Source of the DNA: Cyanidium caldarium
Taxonomy: Eukaryota; Rhodophyta; Bangiophyceae; Cyanidiales; Cyanidiaceae
NCBI GenBank assembly: GCA_026184775.1
Contig: JANCYW010000018.1
Coordinates: 223,434 to 287,433, forward strand
Length of the DNA: 64,000 nucleotides
Direction: 5' to 3'
Shown one piece after another: positions 25,535 through 60,647 of this stretch. Positions within the stretch are counted from its first letter, which is position 1. Each line of letters starts with the position of its first letter. The notes below the pieces were generated by a model. The model was given only the letters and a program-made list of their open reading frames with translations. It had not been told where the DNA came from and did not search any database. The position numbers and the translations under genes are program-made.

Positions 25535-25847
25535 AGAGAAACCTATGCAGTATGCGGCGGGGGTGAAGCGTCGTGCCTGCCCATCGTCGCGGCCAGTGCG
25601 GTCTCTCCAGACGGCATGAACGTCAGCAGACGTTTCGGAACACCTCTACCCCGAGAGTTGCGCGTCGCTTGCCACCGAATGCCCGTCGGCGGCGTTTCGA
25701 TACGTCGCGCTGAGGACGAGAGACCTCGGGGGAGCTGTGGAGGCCGGAAAGAGCACCGAATAAAGGGATATCGTGCAATGGGAGGGTATCGGTAAGAGCA
25801 CTGGTTGCATCGCCGCTCGTCCTGAATCGATCTCTGCTTCCAAAACC
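25535..25847. promoter_or_regulatory. Divergent promoter region, SET1 / biotin fusion gene
   Basis: This 313-base spacer contains both promoters. The biotin-gene frame is open upstream to 25773 but has no family resemblance there. No clear element was seen. Confidence 0.35.
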
Positions 25848-28121
25848 ATGAGCAGGGTCCCGCTGGCGTTGCAAGTGTGGGGCGCGAACACCAACGTGGG
25901 CAAGACGTTGGCGTGCGCGGCGTTGGCGCGAGCGCACTGCCGCCGGCAGCCTGCTCAGCTGTGTATGTATCTCAAGCCGTTGCAGACCGGATACCCGGAG
26001 GATCACGATGCACGGCGGGTGTTTGAATTGTGTGCAGAGCGCCCGGGCGGCGACGGTCTGTTCGGGGAGCGGCGAGCGCGACTGGACGCGCTCGACTGGG
26101 GTACGGACGCGCCGCGGCTGTTGTGTCGTACGATGAAGGCGTGGTCGCTGGCGCGATCGCCACAGGAGGCGGCGCGCGATGCCGGAGCGCAGCCGCCGAT
26201 GCAACATCCGGCAGTGGAGGCCGGCTCGCCGCCGGTGCCGGGCGCGGCGCATGCCGAGGAGGGTGCCGTGTTGTCAGCGGTGGCGTCCCTGCTGCGCACC
26301 ACGCCACATCGTTTGGCACTGGTGGAGACGGCTGGCGGGGTGCTGTCGCCGGTGACGGCGTCGGGAATGTTGCAGGCCGATTGGTATCGGCCGCTGCGGC
26401 TGCCGGCGCTGCTGGTGGGCGATTCGCGGCTGGGCGGGGTGTCGGCCACGCTGGCGGCGTACGAGTCGCTGCGAGCGCGTGGCTACTCGGTGCCGGCAGT
26501 GGCATTTTGTGCCAGCGAGTCATTGGACGATGCGCGCAACGCCGAGGCGGTGCGACAACACCTGGCCGAGGCAGAGACGCCGGCGGTCGTGCCGCGCTTG
26601 TGGGTGGGGCGACCGGACGCCGCCGCTGACACGGCTGCCGAGCAACTGTTGCAGTCTCTGGAGGCGTGGTGGCGACAGCAGCAACGCGAATGGGAACACA
26701 TGCGGCAGGAGGCACCGCGGCGGCTGTGGTGGCCGTTCACGCAGCACGGTTGGCGCGAGTCGGGCGAGCGGCGCGCGGTCACCACAGTGATCGATTCGGC
26801 GTATGGCGATTACTTTACGGTACCCGCCAACACTAGCTCTACTCCGGACTGCACTGCCACCACGGCACTGCTAGATGGATGCGGCTCGTGGTGGACGCAA
26901 TCGGCCGGGCACGGCAACGTGGAGCTCGTCCAGGCTGCATCCCACGCTCTGGGGCGGTACGGCCACGTCATGTTTCCGGAGTGCGTACACCGTCCGGCAT
27001 TCGCGTTGGCCACCCGCCTGCTGGAGGGTGTCGGCCGCGGCTGGGCGTCGCGCGTATTCTACTCGGACGACGGCAGCACCGCGGTGGAGGTGGCGCTGAA
27101 GATGGCCTTTCGGCTGGCGCTGGCGCGCGGGGTGTGGCATCAGGGTGCGCACCCGCAACCGTTGGTGGTGGCGCTGAACGGTGCGTATCACGGCGACACG
27201 TTGGGCGCCATGGACTGCGCACCGGCGTCGGAGTTTAATGCACTGCAGACGCCGTGGTATCGGGCACGCGGTCTGTTCTTGGATCCGCCGCTGGCGAACG
27301 TGCGCGACGGCGCTTGGACGCCGGGCGATCCGCGAGCACTGTCACGCGGCGAGACGTCAGCGGTGGCAGAGCATCGCAAGCGGATTGAGGCGGCCTTGGC
27401 ACGGGCACCGGAGGGATCGATAGCGGCGCTGGTGCTGGAGCCGTTGTTACAAGGCGCTGGCGGCATGCGCCTGGTGGATCCGCGGTATCAGCAAGCGCTG
27501 ATCGATGCCTGCCGCGCGCGCCGCATCCCGGTGGTTTTCGATGAGGTGTTCACCGGATTCTGGCGGCTGGGTGCCGAGACCGGCGCAGCGTTGCTGCAGC
27601 GTGAGCCGGATGTGGCGGCGTACGGCAAACTGCTGACCGGCGGGGCGCTGCCGTTGGCGGTTACGTTGGCGAGCGATGAGGTGTTCACGGCGTTTCGCGG
27701 TCCGGAGAAGCGACAGGCGCTGCTGCACGGACACTCGTACAGTGCGCACCCGGCCGGCTGTGCGACCGCGCTGGCGTCCCTGGATCTGTATGCGCGGGTG
27801 CCGGAACGGCTGCAACTGCAGTTTGACGAGGTGACCGTGCGGGCGCTGTCGCTGTGCCGCGGCGTGCACCAAGTGCGCGCCATAGGATCGGTGCTGGCAG
27901 TGGAACTGGAGGAGGGAGGGGAAGTGCGGGAGGATACGCAGGGAGGTGCATATAGGCATGCGGTGGATCGGGTGGCGGAGTATGCCGCCGACCGACATCG
28001 GCTATTTCTCCGGGCGCTGGGGTCGGCAGTGTACATTATGGCGTCGCCGGCGCACACCAGCGAGGCGGAGCGTCGGAGAATGGCGGAGGCGCTGTTGGAT
28101 ACCATTCAGAACGTGATGTGA
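25848..28121 (+). CDS. Bifunctional dethiobiotin synthetase / DAPA aminotransferase
   Basis: A fusion of two successive biotin-synthesis enzymes: KAPA to DAPA (PLP aminotransferase, BioA) and DAPA to dethiobiotin (ATP-dependent, BioD). The N-terminal part is the synthetase, with the P-loop GANTNVGKTL (Lys19), LKPLQTGYPEDHD, and LALVETAGGVLSPV. From about residue 293 the aminotransferase begins with WWPFTQHGW. It then has NVELVQAASHALGRYGHVMFPE, FYSDDGSTAVEVALKMAFR, LNGAYHGDTLGAMD, VFDEVFTGFWRLG and YGKLLTGGALPL, where Lys594 should bind PLP. The 757-residue layout is that of plant and fungal BIO3-BIO1 fusions, mitochondrial in plants. No strong presequence is seen with this start, so localisation is open. 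The gene lies directly upstream of the nitrite-reducing gene on the same strand. Confidence 0.95.
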   Translation: MSRVPLALQVWGANTNVGKTLACAALARAHCRRQPAQLCMYLKPLQTGYPEDHDARRVFELCAERPGGDGLFGERRARLDALDWGTDAPRLLCRTMKAWSLARSPQEAARDAGAQPPMQHPAVEAGSPPVPGAAHAEEGAVLSAVASLLRTTPHRLALVETAGGVLSPVTASGMLQADWYRPLRLPALLVGDSRLGGVSATLAAYESLRARGYSVPAVAFCASESLDDARNAEAVRQHLAEAETPAVVPRLWVGRPDAAADTAAEQLLQSLEAWWRQQQREWEHMRQEAPRRLWWPFTQHGWRESGERRAVTTVIDSAYGDYFTVPANTSSTPDCTATTALLDGCGSWWTQSAGHGNVELVQAASHALGRYGHVMFPECVHRPAFALATRLLEGVGRGWASRVFYSDDGSTAVEVALKMAFRLALARGVWHQGAHPQPLVVALNGAYHGDTLGAMDCAPASEFNALQTPWYRARGLFLDPPLANVRDGAWTPGDPRALSRGETSAVAEHRKRIEAALARAPEGSIAALVLEPLLQGAGGMRLVDPRYQQALIDACRARRIPVVFDEVFTGFWRLGAETGAALLQREPDVAAYGKLLTGGALPLAVTLASDEVFTAFRGPEKRQALLHGHSYSAHPAGCATALASLDLYARVPERLQLQFDEVTVRALSLCRGVHQVRAIGSVLAVELEEGGEVREDTQGGAYRHAVDRVAEYAADRHRLFLRALGSAVYIMASPAHTSEAERRRMAEALLDTIQNVM

Positions 28122-28275
28122 AGAGGGGAGGGAGGGAGCTACGATGGGGGTTGGGAGGCTGGCGTGCGCGATAGGTGGGTTGCCCGAAATGCCCGGCGGG
28201 TTCTCGTTCGGCGGTGCGCGGGTTCTGCGATCCGGTCTTCGAAGCGGCACCCTCACCGAACACATCCACGAGAAA

Positions 28276-28309
28276 TTTGCGGGCGATCCGAATTTCGATC
28301 GCCCGCAAA
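28276..28309. promoter_or_regulatory. 13-bp perfect inverted repeat, candidate operator
   Basis: TTTGCGGGCGATC and its exact reverse complement flank the 8-base spacer CGAATTTC. The repeat ends 118 bases before the chosen ATG of the reductase gene. A dyad sharing the inner CGATC-N8-GATCG lies 116 bases before the nitrate transporter ATG. It could be a protein-binding dyad or an RNA hairpin; the shared spacing favours a binding site (inference). Confidence 0.55.
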
Positions 28310-28331
28310 CCATCGCAGCCGTTCCCCAACG

Positions 28332-28344
28332 TTTTTCTCAACGG
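28332..28344 (+). promoter_or_regulatory. T-run plus CAACGG, candidate MYB site
   Basis: TTTTTCTCAACGG. CAACGG fits the R2R3-MYB core YAACKG, and a MYB factor (CmMYB1) is known to switch on nitrogen-assimilation genes in C. merolae. A near-identical TTTTTCAACGG lies in the transporter promoter at 33649-33659. The core alone is common, so the support is the shared T-run and context. Confidence 0.35.
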
Positions 28345-28427
28345 ACCGATGAGCGCGCCGCTCTCCAGGTCGACCATGCCCACTCTTGTGCATGGGCACT
28401 CGCCACTCCGGCTCCCCTTCATGCACC

Positions 28428-30394
28428 ATGGCGTGCCGCGCGTGTTTCATCACCCCCACCATTCTCCTCCACTCCGGGGATCGCCCTTTTCTGGGCACCC
28501 GCTGCAGCCCGCGCCAGCGTTTTCGCGCCACCTCCCTGCGTATGGTGCAGCAGCCGCCGGTCCGCAAGACGGTGCCGATCAGCACGCTGCGCGAGCTGCT
28601 CGAGCAGCAACGCAACGGCACGCTCAAGCGGCTGCGCATGAATCCGTACGAGGTGCCCAAGCTCCATTCGAACTATCTGCGGCATCCGCTGGCCGAGGAT
28701 CTCGCCGACGACAACATCTTCATATCGGACGACAGTATCGGCCTGATCAAGTTCCACGGCGGATACCAACAGGATGACCGCGATCAGCGGGTGCGCGGCG
28801 AGCTGAAAAAGTACCAGTTCATGTTGCGTATGAAGATGCCGGCGGGCGAATGTCCCGCCAAAGTGTTTCAGGCCATCGACGACGTGAGCGAGATGTTCGG
28901 CAACCACACGCTGCGCCTGACGTCGCGCTCCTCGTTCCAAATCCACGGCATTCTCAAGTCGAACTTGAAGGCGGTGTACCAAAAGATCATCCACGCGGGT
29001 GGCGGCCTGTACGGGGCCAGCGGCGACTGCTCTCGCAATGTGAGCACCTGTGCGGCGCCGTTCACCTCGGCGCCGTATCGACATGCGCGCCACACCGCCA
29101 AGATGCTGGCCGAGGTGTTGGGGCTGCAGTCACGCGCCTTTGCCGAAATCTGGCTGGACGGTGAGAAGGCCGCCACCATCGAGACCTGGAAAGAGGACAT
29201 CGACATGGACGATGTGCAACGCATCATCCGCCACGACAACGGCCGCGGCGCCGTGCTGGACGATCCGGTGGAGCCCATCTACGGGCACGCCTACCTGCCG
29301 CGTAAGTTCAAAATGGGCGTGACCGTGCCCGGCGACAACAGCCTCGACGTGTACACACACGACGTCGCGCTGGTGGTGATGTGCGACTCCGACGGCAACC
29401 TCGAGGGCTACGACGTGCTGGTGGGTGGCGGGATGGGCCGCGCCCACGGCAAGGAGGAGACGTTTGCCCGCGCCGCCGACCATTTCGGGTACGTGCCAGC
29501 GCATGCGGTGTACGATCTGGTGAAAGCGATTGCCGCCACCCAGCGGGATCACGGCAACCGCGAGGTGCGCACCAATGCCCGCATGAAGTACCTGGTGCAT
29601 CGAATGGGCGTGGACGCTTTCCGCGATCTAGTCAAGACGTACATGGAGGACGGCGGGGCGGCGCTGGAGCCGTTCCGGCCACTGCCGCCGTGGAGGTTTT
29701 CGGATTGGCTTGGCTGGCACGAGGACGGCAGCGGCACCTGGTTTTTGGGACTGTACGTGCAAAACGGCCGGCTGAAGGGCGAGTACAAACGGGCGCTGCG
29801 CCAGGTGGCGAACCAGTTCGGCTACACGTTTGTGACCACGCCGCAGCAGAACGTGCTCATCGCTGGAGTGCCCACCGAGAAGAAGCGCGAGCTCGAGTCG
29901 CTGCTGCAATCGCACGGCGTGGAGCTCGATGCCGAGCGTCTCGACCCGCTGATGCGCAACGCCATGGCATGCCCGGCGCTGCCGCTGTGCCCGCCGGCCA
30001 CCACCGAGGCCGAGCGGGTGATGCCGGCGTACGTGCAGCGGGTGCGTCAGCTGATGAACAAAGTGGGCATCAGCGACCGCGAGTCGTTCGTGCTGCGCAT
30101 GACCGGCTGTCCGAACGGGTGCACGCGGCCGTACATGGCCGAGTTGGGTTTCGTGGGCTCCGGGCCCAACTGCACCTACCAGCTGTGGCTGGGGGTAGTC
30201 CGGACCAGACTCGTCTAGCGTGGCCGTACAGGGACCGGGTGCCGGATGCGGAAATGGAGAAGACGCTAGAACCGATTTTTATGTTCTGGCGGGCGGAGAG
30301 GGACGAGGGAGAGTCGTTCGGCGACTTTTGTCATCGCGTCGGAAAGGCCGCGATAGAGAAGCACGCCGAGCAGTACCATTCCGTCCCAGCGTGA
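28428..30394 (+). CDS. Sulfite-reductase-like nitrite reductase, plastid; frame broken by one base
   Basis: Ferredoxin-dependent siroheme/4Fe-4S reductase of the sulfite reductase family. In C. merolae a homologue beside nitrate reductase and transporter acts as the nitrite reductase. The first ~40 residues (MACRACFITPTILL, later RQRFRATSLR) look like a plastid transit peptide. Then come KLHSNYLRHPLAEDLADDN, IKFHGGYQQDDRDQR, TLRLTSRSSFQIHGILKSNL, CSRNVSTCAAPF, YDVLVGGGMGRAHGKEETF, and the cluster ligands CPALPLC and TGCPNGC. The frame as given stops at 30218 after WLGVVRTRLV. The family-typical tail (PDQTRLAWPYRDRV, then EKTLEPIFMFW and GESFGDFCHRVG) follows in the +1 frame and ends at 30394. 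Five Gs at 30191-30195, where six are expected, account for the break. A sequencing or assembly error is the likeliest cause; a real mutation is possible. A shorter start at 28542 would lack the transit peptide. Confidence 0.92.
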
Positions 30395-30576
30395 GGGAGG
30401 CGATGAATCGCATGGTCGTAAACGCGGGAGCAGTGTGTTCAGCAGCGGGTGGTGCCCGCGGCGCGCTGTCCGCGCTCGGAATCGGTCGCGACCTTCGAGC
30501 CCTGCAGGAGGAGGGCTTGGCGTCGGGGCAACGATACCATCGGTTGAGCTGACCACTTTCTTCGGGTCCATAAACT

Positions 30577-31364
30577 CTAGAATGAAAAATACTGCTCCCT
30601 CCTGTAACCTGCCTTCTCCAAGTTGGGCACGCACGCCTTTTCGATCATGATCGGCGGCCCGCACAATCCGACCAATACGTCATCCCCGGGCGGTGGCAGA
30701 TGCTCCCGCACCATTCCCTCATCGATGAATCCCACACCATACTTCCACCCATTGGGCGGACTCACCAACGTATGCCACACGTGAACGTTCTCGTGCGCTT
30801 CCGCCCACGCCTCCAGCTCCTCCCGCAACAGAATATCCTCCTCACCGTTATTAGCGTACACCAGCCACATCTCCACCGGCGGCTGGTGTCGCTCGCGCAG
30901 GATGGCCTGCATCACCTGGTATGCCGGGGTGATGCCGGTGCCGCCGCACATGAACCCGAATCGCCGCACCACGCCGCGCTGGCCATTCAGCACGTAGGCG
31001 CCGGCGCCGACATACGCAAAATGTCCCAGCGGGCCCTTGATGTCCACCTGGTCGCCGACCGACAATCGGTCCAGGTGCTGCGACAGCTTGCCGCCAGCGG
31101 GGAATTTCGGATGCTCATTGGCGCGATACACCTTGATCACCAGGTCGAAAAAGCCGCGCACCTCGTCGCCGGTGGTGGGCGTGTACGCCCGCATCACCAC
31201 GGCGCCGTCGATGCGGGCGCGCACGAACAGGTGGTTGCCCACCGGCAGGCCGAGGCGGTGTCTCGGTGATGGCAATCCGAAGCGGAATCGGCACGAGTTG
31301 GGCGACAGGATGACCTTGTCTATCAGCGGCACGGACAGGTACTTTCGAGGGTCCAGGGTGATCG

Positions 31365-31398
<34 letters not shown>

Positions 31399-33375
31399 TC
31401 CCACGACCCCGCCGTTCGCCTGCGAGGGCACGTGCGCGTCGGTGGGCAGCTGCTCGCGCAGCAGCTTCGCCGTCGAGTTCGAATAGTCCAAGTGCGGCTC
31501 CGGTGGCTCGTCGCCGTCGACCAGATCGCCGATGTAGTGACCGGCCAGCAGGTTCCACGCGCGCTCCGAGTGGATGGCCTCGAAATCCTCGGTGCAGTCG
31601 GCGCCAGCGTTCATCATGATCGCCGCCACGCCGCCCGGATGGTCATTCAGGTAGTGCGTGCAGTCATAGACGCGCTGCTTGACCACGATCCACACGTCGT
31701 CCTCGCTTCTGTGCTTCTCTACCTCCTCCATGCGGATTTTGCGCGGGCCGTCCATGGCCGCCGCTTGGTTGACCTGATTGCGCAGCGCCTGCTGGTAGAT
31801 GTTGGAGCCGTGCACCGTCTTGCCGGGGTCGGCGTGCGTGGGTGGCTTGGGCGCCGCGACCGCCTTGTCCGGGACGGCAGGCGCCACCGTGGCTTTTTCG
31901 ACGGCCGCGGCCGCATGCGGCCGGGGCGGTATGCCGCCGGACATTTTCGGGCCGTCGCGCGCCATCCAGCCGCCCGTATTCGAGCCGGGCACCGTCGGGT
32001 GCTCGAAGCGCAGTCCAAACGCCCCATGCACGGCGTCGTGTGTCGGGTGGATCTTCACCCGGAAGCAGCAGTTGTTGCCCATGCCGAATACGTTCCAGAT
32101 GAGCGCGTACGGCTGCGTGTTGTTGGAGCAGTCCCAGGCGCGCACCGCAAACTCGGTGGCACAGAACAGCCGCAGCACATCCACTTCGAAGCGGAACTTG
32201 GACCACGCCCAGCAGCGGCCGGCCCAGTTGGGTGCAAACGGGTGCCGCACCTCGCACATCTCCCAGGTGTGTCCGCCATCGAAAGTGATCTCCACCCGCG
32301 TCACCTGCCGCCCGCCGCCGCTGTACGCATAGCCCTGAACGGTGTACCGCTCCTGCTTCCGACCGGTGAGCGGCAGCACCTCGTCGTGGTCGGGCGCGAT
32401 GACCGCCGAGTTGATGTTCAGCTCGTTGAACAGATACTCCGGTCGATACCACCACCGCTCTGCGTCTGCCTTGTCCTTATCGACGTGCGGCGGCATGATG
32501 CGGTTGTCAAAGTAGTGGTAGTGGTTGGTGGACTCGCTCTCGGTCACTTCGATGCGCGAAAGCCATTTGACCATCCGACCGCCGATCCAACCGGGCACCA
32601 GCAGGCGCACCGGAAAGCCGTGGTCCGGCAGCAGCGGCTTGCCGTTCTGGGCCACCGCCAACAGCACGTCGCCGTAGGGGTCCATGGCCATCGCCAGGGG
32701 CATACTGGTGCCGTACGGGCCGCCAGACGGGTTGTCGTCGCCGGTGCACGACACGAAGCGGGCGCGCTTGCCGCACTCCACGCCGCAGTGTCGCAGCACG
32801 TTGGCCAGCGGCACGCCGGTCCAGAGCGATGTGGAGACGCCGCCCGCTCCCCAATTGAACCCTATGGTCTGTTTCACCTGGTTCATCTCCTTGCGGCGGT
32901 TGCCGGCGCACACCAGCGTGACAGGGACGGTGCGCAGCGGACCTAGCACCAGCAGCTGTGCCATGGTGAAAGTGGCCGCTCGCTTCAGCAGTCCGCACAC
33001 CTCGATGCGGTGCGACTCCCACACCAGCTGCGGCACTGCGCCGTGGTTGCGCACATAGTGCAACTCGGCGGCAGTGACGTCCTGCTTGAGGTAGCGCAGC
33101 GGCGGCTCGCAGTTGAACGGGTGGCGGCCGGTGAGGCGCACCAGGTCGGGGTGGCGCGGCACCCACACGTCCGGCGTCTTGCGGTCGCGCGAATCGACGG
33201 CCTCCACAGGATGCTGCAGGGCGTCCGGGAACTGCTTCTGGAGCATCTCCCGCACGCGGGCCGTCTCCTCGGGGAACAGATCCACCGGTGGCGGTCTCAG
33301 GGTGTCATTGGGTAGCGTCCCGTTGGCGAGCGGCTGCGTGGGCTCGTTCACAAGGGGAGATGGCTTCGACGTCAT
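30577..33375 (-). CDS. Assimilatory nitrate reductase, NAD(P)H-dependent
   Basis: Cytosolic enzyme reducing nitrate to nitrite with NADH or NADPH. The 932-residue product has the full eukaryotic layout. The Mo-molybdopterin domain has the Mo-ligand Cys156 in LVCAGNRRKEMN and FNWGAGGVSTSLWTGV. The dimerisation domain follows (QVTRVEITFDGGHTWE to CFRVKIHP). The cytochrome b5 domain (about 544-620) has the HPGG motif at 579-582 and a likely second heme His at 602. An acidic linker with a run of ten Asp (660-669) precedes the FAD domain with RAYTPT at 729. The nucleotide-binding domain has GGTGITP at 811 and CGPP at 905, and the protein ends QYFSF. No 14-3-3 hinge motif like that of plants is evident in the linker (about 470-540). 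It is divergent from the transporter (429-base spacer) and convergent with the reductase gene (182 bases). Confidence 0.97.
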
Positions 33376-33804
33376 GGCTAGTGGGCGGGCGGCTGTACAG
33401 GGAGCAAGTGGAATCCCCGACCCGCTCCGAGAACAATCGCACGGAGGACCAGGGCGCGCGCGACACTGGCCACACCCTGGTCACTCACGTTGCCGCACGG
33501 GCCCTGAATCGACGTCGCAGCACCTCCGCCGAGGCTCGCGCTGCTTGCGGTGTCCCTCCGTTGTTCAACGAACTTCTCTCTCCGTTCTCCGCATCGTTTC
33601 TCCCTCTATCGATGCGCTGACGACGTGCGCCGCCCGTTCTGCAACGACTTTTTCAACGGCTGCGCGCTCGATCGGTGAAGAGATCGAGGTTCGCATGCGC
33701 ATGCGGCGGCCGCCATAGCGTGTAACCGTGTGACCTTAGTTGCGGACGGCGTGTTGGCAACGGAGTCATTCGTGTGCCTTGGCTGCTACGCGCACGGACT
33801 CATC
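33376..33804. promoter_or_regulatory. Divergent promoter, nitrate reductase / nitrate transporter
   Basis: This 429-base spacer controls two nitrate genes. It contains, close together on the transporter side, TTTTTCAACGG (33649-33659), a CGATC-N8-GATCG dyad (33667-33688), a 14-base palindrome CGCATGCGCATGCG (33692-33705) and the palindrome GGCGGCCGCC (33705-33714). An 8-base palindrome CGACGTCG at 33510-33517 lies 134 bases from the nitrate reductase ATG. Confidence 0.6.
33667..33688. promoter_or_regulatory. 7-bp inverted repeat CTCGATC-N8-GATCGAG, candidate operator
   Basis: The inner CGATC-N8-GATCG equals the core of the long dyad before the sulfite-reductase-like gene, with the same 8-base spacer and nearly the same distance to the ATG (116 against 118 bases). 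Confidence 0.5.
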
Positions 33805-35442
33805 ATGGAGGACCCGATCCCTCCGGAACCTCCTTCTGGAGCTGATGAGCGCGAAGACACCCTCGCGTCGACGGCGCCGTCGCGCGAAGTATCCAAAGAC
33901 TGGAAGGACCTGGAGGGGGAGGCGGCGGGCGAGCCCGAGGAACCCCACTTCCGACTGCCGGTGGATGTTCTGCATCGGGCGCGCCGGTTGGAGCCGTGGC
34001 GCTTTGACCGACCGCATATGCGCGCTTTCCACTTTGCGTGGTCGTCGTTTTTCTTAGCGTTTTTCGGGTGGTTTGCGGTGCCAGCGCTGTTGCCCACGAT
34101 CAAAACGAGTACGTCGTTGGGCTTGGACTCCAAGTCCAAGGTGTACGACTCCAACGCCGTTGCGCTCGTCGGGACGGTGTTGATGCGCTTCGTGATCGGC
34201 TCGATGGCGGATCGTTACGGACCGCGCATATCGCAGGCGACGCTGCTGACGGTGTTTTCCCTTCCAATATACCTGCTGGGCACCACTTTCAACTACGGCT
34301 CGTTCGTGGCGTGTCGTTTCTTCATCGGCATGGTAGGTGCGACGTTCGTGATCACCGAATTTTGGACGTCGACCATGTTCTCGCGCAACATCGTCGGCAC
34401 GGCCAACGCGGTGGCGGCCGGCTGGGGCAATGCCGGCGGCGGTGTCACTCTGGCGCTGATGCCGCAGTTCTTCGACCTCATGAAGGTGTTCGGACTGGAT
34501 GACGACAAGGCGTGGCGCGTGGTGATGGTGATTCCGGCCACGGCGAATATCATCATGGCGGTGTGTCTTTACTTGTTTGCGGACGACTGCCCGGACGGAC
34601 CGTACAAGAACCTGCGCCGCGAGCCCAACATCCAACCGGTGCAGCCGTGGGAGGCGTTTCTGCGGGCGGCATCCAACCCGCGCACTTGGGTGTTGTTCCT
34701 CATCTACGCCTCGTGCTTTGGAGTGGAGCTCACCATGGACAGTACGCTGACCAGCTACTTTCATGCAGTGTACAAACTAGGCCAGGACACGGCGGGCGTC
34801 GCCGCCGGCCTGTTCGGCATTCTGAATATCTTTGCGCGCGCGCTGGGCGGCATCGGCTCGGACTTGATGGCACACTGGTTCAGTATGCGCGGCCGGGTGG
34901 CGTGGCTGTTCTGCCTCATTCTGCTGGAGGGCGTGTTCGCACTGGTGTTCTCGCGCATGAGCACGCTAAGTGGCGCGCTGCCGGTGCTGATCATCTTCTC
35001 CATTTTCACCCAAATGAGTTGCGGAGGCACCTTCTCCATCGTGCCCTTTGTGGACCCGAAAGTGTTGGGTGCCGTGTCGGGCATTGTGGGCGGCGGCGGC
35101 AACGCCGGTGGTGTGTTCTTCAGCCTGGTGTTCTCGCGCGTGGACTATCAGCCGGCCATGCTGATCATTTCGCTGGTGGTCATCGGTATGTCGTTGGTCG
35201 TGCTGCCGCTGTTGTGGCCGCTGGAGGTGCCGCCCAGTACCATCGGCATCACCGAGGGGGAGATGTCGTACATCCGCCGGCACAGCACCCAATCGGTGGA
35301 TGCCGCCGGCGCAACCGAGCTGCCTAGGACCGACGAGATCCACGTGGTGCCCGAGACGGGTGAGGCTACAGAGGGGAGTGTGGAACGTGCCGAAGTGAAG
35401 GGCCGCACTTTGGCAGTGACAGGAGAGGAAAAAGTTGAGTGA
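33805..35442 (+). CDS. High-affinity nitrate transporter, NRT2/NNP family
   Basis: Proton-coupled nitrate (and nitrite) importer of the plasma membrane, major facilitator superfamily. The 545-residue product has a ~70-residue acidic cytosolic N-terminus, then 12 predicted membrane segments starting at FHFAWSSFFLAFFGWFAVPALLP. Family signatures are RFVIGSMADRYGPRI (MFS loop 2-3), both nitrate signatures (AGWGNAGGGVTLALMPQ and GGGGNAGGVFFSLVFS), and ARALGGIGSDLMAHWFSMRGR. The C-terminal ~65 residues are hydrophilic and acidic, as in algal NRT2 proteins. The ATG at 33805 (MEDPIPPEP) follows a short non-family open stretch. It is divergently coupled to nitrate reductase. Confidence 0.96.
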   Translation: MEDPIPPEPPSGADEREDTLASTAPSREVSKDWKDLEGEAAGEPEEPHFRLPVDVLHRARRLEPWRFDRPHMRAFHFAWSSFFLAFFGWFAVPALLPTIKTSTSLGLDSKSKVYDSNAVALVGTVLMRFVIGSMADRYGPRISQATLLTVFSLPIYLLGTTFNYGSFVACRFFIGMVGATFVITEFWTSTMFSRNIVGTANAVAAGWGNAGGGVTLALMPQFFDLMKVFGLDDDKAWRVVMVIPATANIIMAVCLYLFADDCPDGPYKNLRREPNIQPVQPWEAFLRAASNPRTWVLFLIYASCFGVELTMDSTLTSYFHAVYKLGQDTAGVAAGLFGILNIFARALGGIGSDLMAHWFSMRGRVAWLFCLILLEGVFALVFSRMSTLSGALPVLIIFSIFTQMSCGGTFSIVPFVDPKVLGAVSGIVGGGGNAGGVFFSLVFSRVDYQPAMLIISLVVIGMSLVVLPLLWPLEVPPSTIGITEGEMSYIRRHSTQSVDAAGATELPRTDEIHVVPETGEATEGSVERAEVKGRTLAVTGEEKVE

Positions 35443-57224: not shown

Positions 57225-57686
57225 GGAGGGGCGATGGGGCGGAGAATCGCGGACGACCGAGGAGCGTTCGTGAGCAGCAAGTAGAGAGAGAAACGGTAGA
57301 ACGGAGCGTCCACGGGCCGAGGTGTCGGCGGACACCCCTCGGAGAGAGCGTCACGGAAAGCAGACCGGGGTGGTAGGAGGGGAGCACAAGTGCCTGAGCG
57401 TTGCGCGTTGTGGTTGAAGCGTTTGGTGAGGAGCACGCTATCAGTTGTTGGGGCCGTAAAAGCCGGCCAATATCGATGCGTGCTCTGGAAGAGCACCCCA
57501 CCCTTCAGACCAGCGCCTGAGACTGCAGCATACGTATCAAACGGGCCAGAGGGCCCCTTCTCATAGCCCGATACAGTGGGCACCTTGCTCCGCTCCCCGC
57601 ATGGAGGTGGACCCCGCGCGAACTCATCGGCGGGAGCGTCGCGTTCTCGCGCTCGCCGCTGTTGCTCGCGCCCACGGAATTCATCT
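57225..57686. promoter_or_regulatory. Divergent promoter region before the last gene
   Basis: This 462-base spacer separates the Cys-rich orphan (-) and the acetyltransferase fusion (+). Both frames are open into it but not family-like. No RNA gene or clear TATA box was seen. Confidence 0.35.
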
Positions 57687-60647
57687 ATGGCGCTGCGACG
57701 ATGGCTCTTCAGCCCGACGCTCAGCTCCCAATTCACCACCCGGCTCTTCTCCCCGCCAAAATGTCTCCTCCGCGGTGAATTTGCCTCCCTGCGCTACCGC
57801 TCGAGCGGCGCCAGCGGAGCGGACGGGCCGACGGCGCTGCCCGGGGAGCCGATCGTGGACCCGTCGGTGCACATCGTGACGCGCAAGCCGCGCGTTCGTG
57901 AGCAGCTGGATGCCATCTTTCAGCCGCGGGCGGTGGCGGTCATCGGGGCCACCGAGAAGGCGCACTCGGTGGGCCGCAACATTCTCCAGAACTTGTTGTC
58001 GCCGTTCGGCGGGGCGGTGTACCCGGTGAACCCCAAGCGCTCGCACGTGCTGGGCGTGCGGGCGTATCCGAGCGTGTCCGCGATACCGGAGCCGGTGGAT
58101 CTGGCGGTGGTGACCACGCCGGCGCCCACGGTGCCGGGTATTATGCGCGAGCTGGCTGCGGCGCACGTGACCGGCTGCATCATCATCTCCGCCGGGTTTG
58201 CGGAGATGCAAGTGGGCGGCGAGGGCCGGCGCCTGTTGGAGACGACGCTGCAGCACGCGCGCGACGGCGGCATCCGTATCATCGGGCCCAACTGTCTGGG
58301 AGTGTTGAACATGACCACGGGCATGAACGCCTCGTTCGGACCCAAGGCGGAGTACGTCAAGGGCGATGTGGCGCTCCTGAGTCAGAGTGGCGCGCTGGTG
58401 TGCTCGATGTTGGACTGGTCGCTGAAGGAGCGTTTCGGGTTCAGCAAGGTGGTGTCGCTGGGCACCATGTGCGACGTCGACTGGGCGGACCTCATTCGGT
58501 ACGTGGGCGAGGATCCGCACTCCAAGTCGATCGTGGCGTACATGGAGTCGATCGGCGATGCGCGTAGCTTCATATCGGCGGCGCGCGAGGTGGCCATCAC
58601 CAAGCCGCTGGTGGTGATCAAGGCGGGGCGCACCCTGGCGGCGGCTGCGGCGGCGGCGTCGCACACCGGCAACTTGACCGGGTCGGATGCGGTGCTGGAC
58701 GAGGTGTTTCGGCGCTGCGGAGTGTTGCGGGTGGATCGCATCGACGATCTGTTTTTGACGGCGCGGGTGTTGGCGCAGCAGCCGCGCCCGCAAGGCAAGC
58801 ACCTCACCATCATCACCAATGCGGGTGGGCCGGGCATTTTGGCGGCGGACGAGTTGGTGGCCGGCGGCGGGGCGCTGACGCAGCTGTCGGCGGAGACGAA
58901 GCAGGCGCTGGATGCGGTGTTGCCGGCGGCATGGTCGCACGCCAATCCGGTGGATGTGATTGGCGACGCCAGTCCCGAGCTGTACGCGAAGGCGTTGGAG
59001 GTGTGTGCGCGCGACACCAACGCCGACGGCACGTTGGTGATTCTGACGCCGCAGGTGATGACCGATGCCACGGCGACGGCGCAGGTGTTGGCGCAGTCGG
59101 CAGCGGTGACGCGGGAGCAGGGCAAGACGCTGCTGGCGAGTTGGATGGGCGGGGTGGAGGTGGCGGCCGGGCAGGATATACTGAAGCGGCATGACATTCC
59201 CAATTTCGCGTTTGCCGACGTCGCCTCCCGCATTTGGAACTATCTGCACCGCTACAACGCCAACCTGGCGAGTTTGTACGAGGTGCCCGAGGCGCCGTCG
59301 ATGCGGGTGTCGGTGATGAAGGCGGTGAAGAAGGAGGCGGCGGAGATGTTGGAGCGGGCGCGGGCCAGCGGCCGGAGCCTGTTGAACGAGTTGGAGAGCA
59401 AGCAGCTGCTGCAGGTGTATGAGATCCCGGTGGTGGACACGTTTGTGGCGCACAACGTCGACGAGGCGGTGGAGGCGGCGCGCGGTATCGGCTACCCGGT
59501 GGTGGTGAAGCTGTTCAGCAACACCATCACCCACAAGTCGGATGTGGGTGGGGTGTGGCTCAATCTGAAAGGGCCCGACGACGTGCGGGAGGCGTACCAC
59601 GGCATTCGGTCGTCGGTGCGGCGGCTGCGCGGCGAGGGCCACTTTCAGGGTGTGACGGTGTACCGCATGGTGGATCTGCCGCGCGACGGTTTCGAGATCC
59701 TGCTGGGCAGCGCGCTAGATCCGCAGGTGGGCCCGGTGGTGACGTTTGGGGCCGGCGGCAGTTTGGTGGAGGTGTTCCGCGACGTGAGCCACGGCATACC
59801 GCCGCTGAATCTGGCGCTGGCGCGGCAGATGATGAAGCGCACTCGCGTGTACGAGGCGCTGCGCGGGGTGCGCGGCCACGCGGCGGTGGACATGGAGCAA
59901 CTGCAGAGTGTGGTGTCGCGTTTCTCGCGTATGGTGGTGGAGCAGCGGCTGATCCGTGAGTGCGACATCAACCCGCTTTTTGTGACTCCGGACGGTGTGG
60001 TGGCCATCGATGCGCGGGTGGTGCTGCACGACGCTGACGTGCCGCTGGAGGCGCTGCCGGAGCCGGCCATTCGGCCGTACCCGGCGGAGTACGTGTGGGC
60101 GTGGAGCGGCGACAGTATGGGCAATCTGCCGGTGGTGATACGGCCGGTGCATCCGTCGGATGAGCCGCAGCTGGATCAGTTCTGGCACCAGCTGGTGGAC
60201 ACGGAGTCGGCCAAGATCCTGCCTCAGCTGAGCGAGCACGCGCCTTCGCGGGACGTGCGCACGCGCGACCACTGGATTCGGCACCGCATTCTGCGGGTGG
60301 CCCACTGCGATTTCAGCACCGAGATGACGCTCATCGCGGAGGTGCGCGACACCGAGGGCGTCGCCGCCATGCACGCGCTGGGGCAGCTGCGGCTGCCGCC
60401 GGATCCGGACGCCGGCCAGTTTGCCATCAGCGTGCTGGGCGGTGACCGCGGCCACGGCCTCGGCACCGAGATGCTGCGGCGGCTGCTGGACGTGGCCCGG
60501 CAGGAGGGGTTGGATCGCGTATGGAGCGAAATTTCTAGGGAGAATAAGGGCATGCTGAGGATTTGCCAGAAGCTAGGGTTTGCACTGGAGGATAGTGATT
60601 CGAATGCGGGGGCGAGAATCATGGCGACCCGGGACGTAAACGGCTGA
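57687..60647 (+). CDS. NDP-forming acyl-CoA synthetase / GNAT fusion, Pat (YfiQ/PatZ)-like lysine acetyltransferase
   Basis: The 986-residue product has a ~65-residue N-terminal region rich in Arg, Ser and Phe that looks like an organelle presequence. A CoA-binding domain follows ([29 protein letters not shown]), then the succinyl-CoA-synthetase-like flavodoxin domains ([38 protein letters not shown]-type segment). The ATP-grasp part begins at about 566 ([40 protein letters not shown]). A C-terminal GNAT domain starts at about 812 ([40 protein letters not shown]). This order is that of bacterial Pat/PatZ, which acetylates and silences acetyl-CoA synthetase. The synthetase half may be inactive as in Pat. 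The last ~40 codons are visibly less GC-biased than the rest. It is the last gene before the telomere; a bacterial origin is plausible. Confidence 0.9.

Follow-up and report, generated by a model that had tools for sequence, protein, structure and literature searches.

Two-fold symmetric sites that lie before nitrate genes include the nitrate-responsive element of the NLP proteins (half-site AAGRGYCA) and the cyanobacterial NtcA box (GTA-N8-TAC). The described system closest to the locus presented here is that of Cyanidioschyzon merolae, in which the MYB1 protein was reported from ChIP to be bound at the proximal promoter of the nitrate transporter gene (NRT) and in which the rise of the NRT, nitrate reductase (NR), and nitrite reductase (NIR) transcripts on nitrate was reported to be abolished without MYB1 (PMC8962646, citing Imamura 2009 and 2010). 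Since MYB1 binding in tagged C. merolae strains was lower without nitrogen than with nitrogen, unlike the earlier result (PMC8962646), the MYB1 binding data do not give a simple picture. The main text of that article uses none of the words "motif," "binding site," and "cis," and no MYB1 binding motif was seen in it. The C. merolae genes are numbered CMG018C (NRT), CMG019C (NR), and CMG021C (NIR) (PMC4549557). R2R3-MYB proteins are described as favoring [C/T]NGTT[G/A] (PMC4613820), and a probe used for the vertebrate B-Myb protein includes TAACGG (PMC9478404).

We analyzed 64 kb of contiguous DNA from Cyanidium caldarium (here, the window), in which the G+C content is 66.4% and eukaryotic genes (e.g., those for SBDS, eIF3g, TCP-1, and BUD31) are densely packed. 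The two C. caldarium nuclear genomes in a published genome table have 65.7% G+C and sizes of 8.79 and 8.73 Mb, while the other genera in the same table reach at most 55.0% G+C (PMC13353863). A ferredoxin sulfite-reductase-like protein, which we take as the nitrite reductase, is encoded on the forward strand at 28392 to 30218. The first in-frame ATG of this frame is at 28392 (the sequence-only reading had used 28428). The frame breaks near 30190 (region 30180 to 30394): a stop codon ends the first frame at 30218, and the remainder of the conserved sulfite-reductase C terminus is encoded in another frame as far as 30394, which reflects either a sequencing error or a gene that is really broken. 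Several upstream ATGs precede the NIR start, at 28144, 28189, 28349, 28376, and 28421; if transcribed, the ATGs upstream of NIR might open upstream reading frames. Directly upstream of NIR (25773 to 28121) lies a gene with AAA_26 and class-III aminotransferase domains, a fused biotin-synthesis enzyme judging by its domains. The nitrate reductase gene (30577 to 33375, reverse strand) encodes molybdopterin, dimerization, cytochrome b5, FAD, and NAD domains, and a GTC repeat run within it (31369 to 31398) encodes an aspartate stretch between the cytochrome b5 and FAD domains. A major-facilitator transporter gene (33805 to 35442, forward strand) is a putative NRT by its context. NR (ATG at 33375, reverse) and NRT (ATG at 33805, forward) diverge from one common promoter region. 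Elsewhere in the window (57576 to 60647), a CoA-ligase/ATP-grasp protein is fused to a GNAT acetyltransferase domain.

Each of the two promoter regions holds a perfect inverted repeat with an 8-nt spacer, centered on the symmetric core CGATC-N8-GATCG. In the NIR promoter, the repeat has 13-bp arms (28276 to 28309; core, 28284 to 28301), and in the NR/NRT promoter it has 7-bp arms (33667 to 33688; core, 33669 to 33686); no strand is assigned to either dyad. The repeats, the core common to both, and the equal spacer length had been described in the sequence-only reading, and the sequence bears out all of these points. The same symmetric core with the same spacer at NIR and NR/NRT is what would be looked for in a dimeric operator. 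The exact motif occurs twice in the window, at these two places alone, versus a mean of 0.14 occurrences in shuffled sequences, of which 2 of 100 reached two. With one mismatch allowed, the window contains 5 occurrences versus 4.0 expected (i.e., chance level), and the words CGATC and GATCG show no enrichment there, their counts being as expected. Other spacers of 0 to 30 nt in CGATC-Nx-GATCG gave one match each at six spacers and zero at the rest.

The arms of the two dyads differ in length (13 versus 7 bp), and their spacer letters are unrelated. Arms as long as those of the 13-bp repeat are found in no other perfect inverted repeat of the window (spacers of up to 30 nt), and a perfect repeat of this length (spacer, 3 to 20 nt) arose in 4% of 150 simulated sequences of 64 kb. 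Since simulated sequences underpredict repeats in this DNA (20 observed versus 9.4 at arms of at least 9 bp, partly from a CAG-type repeat), the length of this repeat is a mild surprise. The 7-bp repeat is of ordinary length, the window containing 160 places with perfect arms of at least 7 bp and spacers of 0 to 20 nt. Distances of 118 and 116 bases to the start codons, put forward earlier as nearly equal, hold for the ATGs at 28428 and 33805, but the first in-frame ATG of NIR (28392) gives 82 bases, and the coincidence is fragile. Near the NIR dyad, a partial repeat of its left arm and center (GCGATCCG-N3-TTCGA, 13/17 identical) is found at 28227 to 28243 and begins 56 bp before the matching letters of the dyad; it is the only other place in the window that reaches 13/17. 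A palindrome (CGCATGCGCATGCG, 33692 to 33705) directly follows the NRT dyad.

The sharing of a dyad by two promoters was evaluated by counting any 5-bp dyad whose arm sequence and spacer length (0 to 20 nt) were identical in both. Matching dyads were found in 32 of 2,000 dinucleotide shuffles of the NIR and NR/NRT promoters and in 1,287 of 60,000 Markov-simulated promoter pairs. Among real upstream pairs, 14 of 397 had a common dyad, and two of these 14 pair NIR with the single NR/NRT intergenic region, once for NR and once for NRT; in some of the 14 the common dyad is a GC-only repeat, and the 400-bp upstream regions compared, taken from 29 genes of the window (406 pairs, less 9 overlapping divergent neighbor pairs), are of fixed length and can enter coding sequence, with several start codons uncertain. 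The GATC dyad alone is an event of 2 to 4% for one pair, and many pairs are open to a reader. On these counts, the earlier argument that the pair of dyads is hard to explain by chance holds poorly.

A second dyad common to both promoters, CCGTT-N16-AACGG, had been overlooked. It occurs in the window at two places alone, i.e., at 28319 to 28344 in the NIR promoter (internal CAACG at 28327) and at 33634 to 33659 in the divergent NR/NRT promoter (internal CAACG at 33642), both on the forward strand. The two 26-bp blocks are identical at 21 of 26 positions on the same strand. Each contains two inverted AACGG half-sites, separated by 16 nt, whose centers are 21 bp apart (approximately two helical turns), and the gap between this array and the GATC dyad is 9 bp in the NIR promoter and 7 bp in the NR/NRT promoter. 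The half-site that faces the dyad is accompanied by the same 5-nt flank in both promoters (AACGGCTGCG; 28314 to 28323 on the reverse strand and 33655 to 33664 on the forward strand); an identical 5-nt flank at a half-site arose in 595 of 100,000 simulations. The window contains four copies of this sequence, of which the two outside these promoters (1868 and 17343) lie within other open frames.

Given the R2R3-MYB preference and the B-Myb probe cited above, the AACGG pair is a natural candidate for a MYB site. The half-site AACGG is found 7 times in the 735 bp of both promoters versus 1.64 expected (P = 0.0015; P = 0.0033 with promoter composition), an excess over background of the kind that would mark a MYB target. 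The strict MYB core (YAACNG/CNGTTR) is matched by one half-site per block; it occurs once in the NIR promoter and four times in the NR/NRT promoter (5 versus 2.6 expected), with no clear excess. As an ungapped alignment, the block scores 16 at a mismatch penalty of -1 (reached by 5 of 500 shuffles) and 11 at a penalty of -2 (reached by 72 of 500). Among the real upstream pairs, 18 of 397 also attain a score of 16, NIR paired with NR or NRT accounting for 2 of the 18, and the alignment taken by itself is not extreme.

Two nonoverlapping common dyads appeared in 11 of 60,000 simulated pairs, and in none of the 60,000 were two common dyads adjacent within 20 bp in both promoters. With the block as an anchor, the 40-bp flanks had a dyad in common in 11 of 40,000 simulations. 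The limits used in these tests, including the 20-bp adjacency, were chosen after the data had been seen, and the margin is large. In the real set of 397 pairs, two nonoverlapping common dyads are confined to NIR paired with NR or with NRT; wherever another pair has more than one, its dyads overlap. The sequences themselves, their adjacency, and their excess over chance are direct observations. Since array and dyad occur together far more closely than chance would predict, the existence of a regulatory module is supported. The part of the earlier reading that took the dyad alone to be beyond chance is poorly supported, and the dimeric regulator envisaged there is possible and unproven. That reading is partly supported overall, and the common unit is understood here as the AACGG array plus the GATC dyad instead of the dyad alone.

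The layout common to the two promoters can be read in two mutually exclusive ways. A same-strand reading gives the best match of the array and places the dyad before the block in one promoter and after it in the other. When one is inverted, the order of elements agrees (i.e., dyad, CGCAGCCGTT, N16, AACGG), running toward NIR in one promoter and toward NR in the other; the interval from GATCG to CGCAGCCGTT is then 12 versus 4 nt, and the distance to the ATG is 47 or 83 versus 258 bases. These disagreements in layout count against a common module.

We propose, with confidence just short of even, that both sites represent one composite promoter module, combining a MYB1-type array with a GATC dyad that may bind a second protein. 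One copy of the module would precede NIR, and the other would lie in the divergent NR/NRT promoter. The principal component would be the inverted AACGG pair, most likely bound by a MYB1-type R2R3 activator that would turn on NRT, NR, and NIR when nitrate replaces ammonium, as in Cyanidioschyzon. The GATC dyad would most likely be an accessory element, recognized by a second DNA-binding protein of symmetric form that acts together with the MYB protein. An 18-bp symmetric dyad beside the array suits a dimeric partner; we infer this partner, as we infer the binding of a MYB protein and of a dimer and any transcriptional effect. A more specific version, in which an undescribed dimeric transcription factor of the Cyanidiophyceae acts at CGATC-N8-GATCG and, with the paired MYB1 site, forms one nitrate-assimilation switch, is rather unlikely.

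That the AACGG array is a working MYB site while the adjoining GATC dyads are a coincidence, the 13-bp palindrome being due to chance or structural, is a serious possibility, and a chance dyad is nearly as likely as a dimeric partner. The frequencies of dyad sharing alone (32 of 2,000 shuffles and 14 of 397 real pairs) fit this explanation, as do the chance-level number of one-mismatch dyads and the fact that the arms, the spacers, and the distances to the block all differ between the promoters. The density of 0.14 exact motifs per 64 kb would moreover correspond to approximately 19 such motifs by chance in an 8.7-Mb genome. The anchored simulations weigh against coincidence, however, a common flanking dyad having appeared in just 11 of the 40,000. 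If the dyads do have a role, it might conceivably be to bind a dimeric regulator that controls the nitrate genes from the GATC dyad without depending on MYB. Both dyads are symmetric and precede genes that are coregulated in Cyanidioschyzon, but nitrate induction in Cyanidioschyzon was reported to be lost without MYB1 (PMC8962646), and both dyads adjoin the common array of MYB-like AACGG half-sites. Control separate from MYB, as suggested in the sequence-only reading, is therefore unsupported, and we regard such a regulator as improbable.

A role in RNA would likewise be improbable. The NIR palindrome, which begins 154 bases past the upstream stop codon, could form a hairpin in the 5' leader of the NIR mRNA or in the 3' region of the biotin gene, provided that it is transcribed. 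The predicted folding energy of its 34 nt as RNA is -23.2 kcal/mol (z = -4.77; matched by 1 of 200 shuffles), and the surrounding 141 nt give a z score of -4.44. Since the NRT dyad folds more weakly (-9.6 kcal/mol; z = -2.64), a common RNA role is unlikely. A T run does not directly follow the NIR palindrome, the next TTTTT lying approximately 20 nt on, a point that bears on bacterial-type terminators alone. Such a terminator was rejected, the gene being taken as nuclear and the hairpin being without a direct T run.

Motifs of other regulators were also scanned in both promoters. The NLP half-site (AAGRGYCA) and NtcA box (GTA-N8-TAC) had no occurrence in either promoter, and the P1BS, NIGT1 palindrome, HIP1, AGATCT, AGATT, TATAWA, CCAAT, and CGG-N11-CCG motifs were absent from both. 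The looser AAGAGT occurs once (28382 in the NIR promoter; 0.10 expected), without a symmetric partner, and is the only motif present in this set that is clearly above expectation. HGATAR (2 versus 0.75 expected), GAATC (2 versus 0.79), and GGATT (1 versus 0.53) were near or slightly above background across the two promoters. In database searches, the 26-bp block pattern had no exact match in viral_contigs, and a megablast search of plasmids with 401 bases from around the region upstream of NIR gave no match. Searches with the NR protein in viral_contigs and genome_contigs and with the NRT protein in viral_contigs, each using six exact 8-residue peptide seeds and thus reaching close relatives only, found no relative. 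Among the literature matches listed, no title or opening part of an abstract reported a GATC dyad in the promoters of red algal nitrate genes.

The nitrate-gene promoters of C. merolae already serve as on/off switches for transgenes (PMC4549557). A concrete composite module narrows the candidates for mutation to a few bases and could be used as bait to find a possible MYB1 partner. Compared with known systems, the proposed module resembles the NLP element and the NtcA box in that symmetric sites stand before nitrate genes. With respect to plant R2R3-MYB sites, the CAACGG sequences at 28339 and 33654 fit the core (PMC4613820), while neither the partner CCGTTC nor the internal CAACGT/CAACGA agrees with its strict form; the paired inverted layout with N16 found here was not seen in the available text of that article. 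The likeness to C. merolae lies in the genes themselves: the NRT, NR, and NIR genes under CmMYB1 control have the same three functions as those of the C. caldarium locus, and there they carry neighboring gene numbers (PMC4549557).
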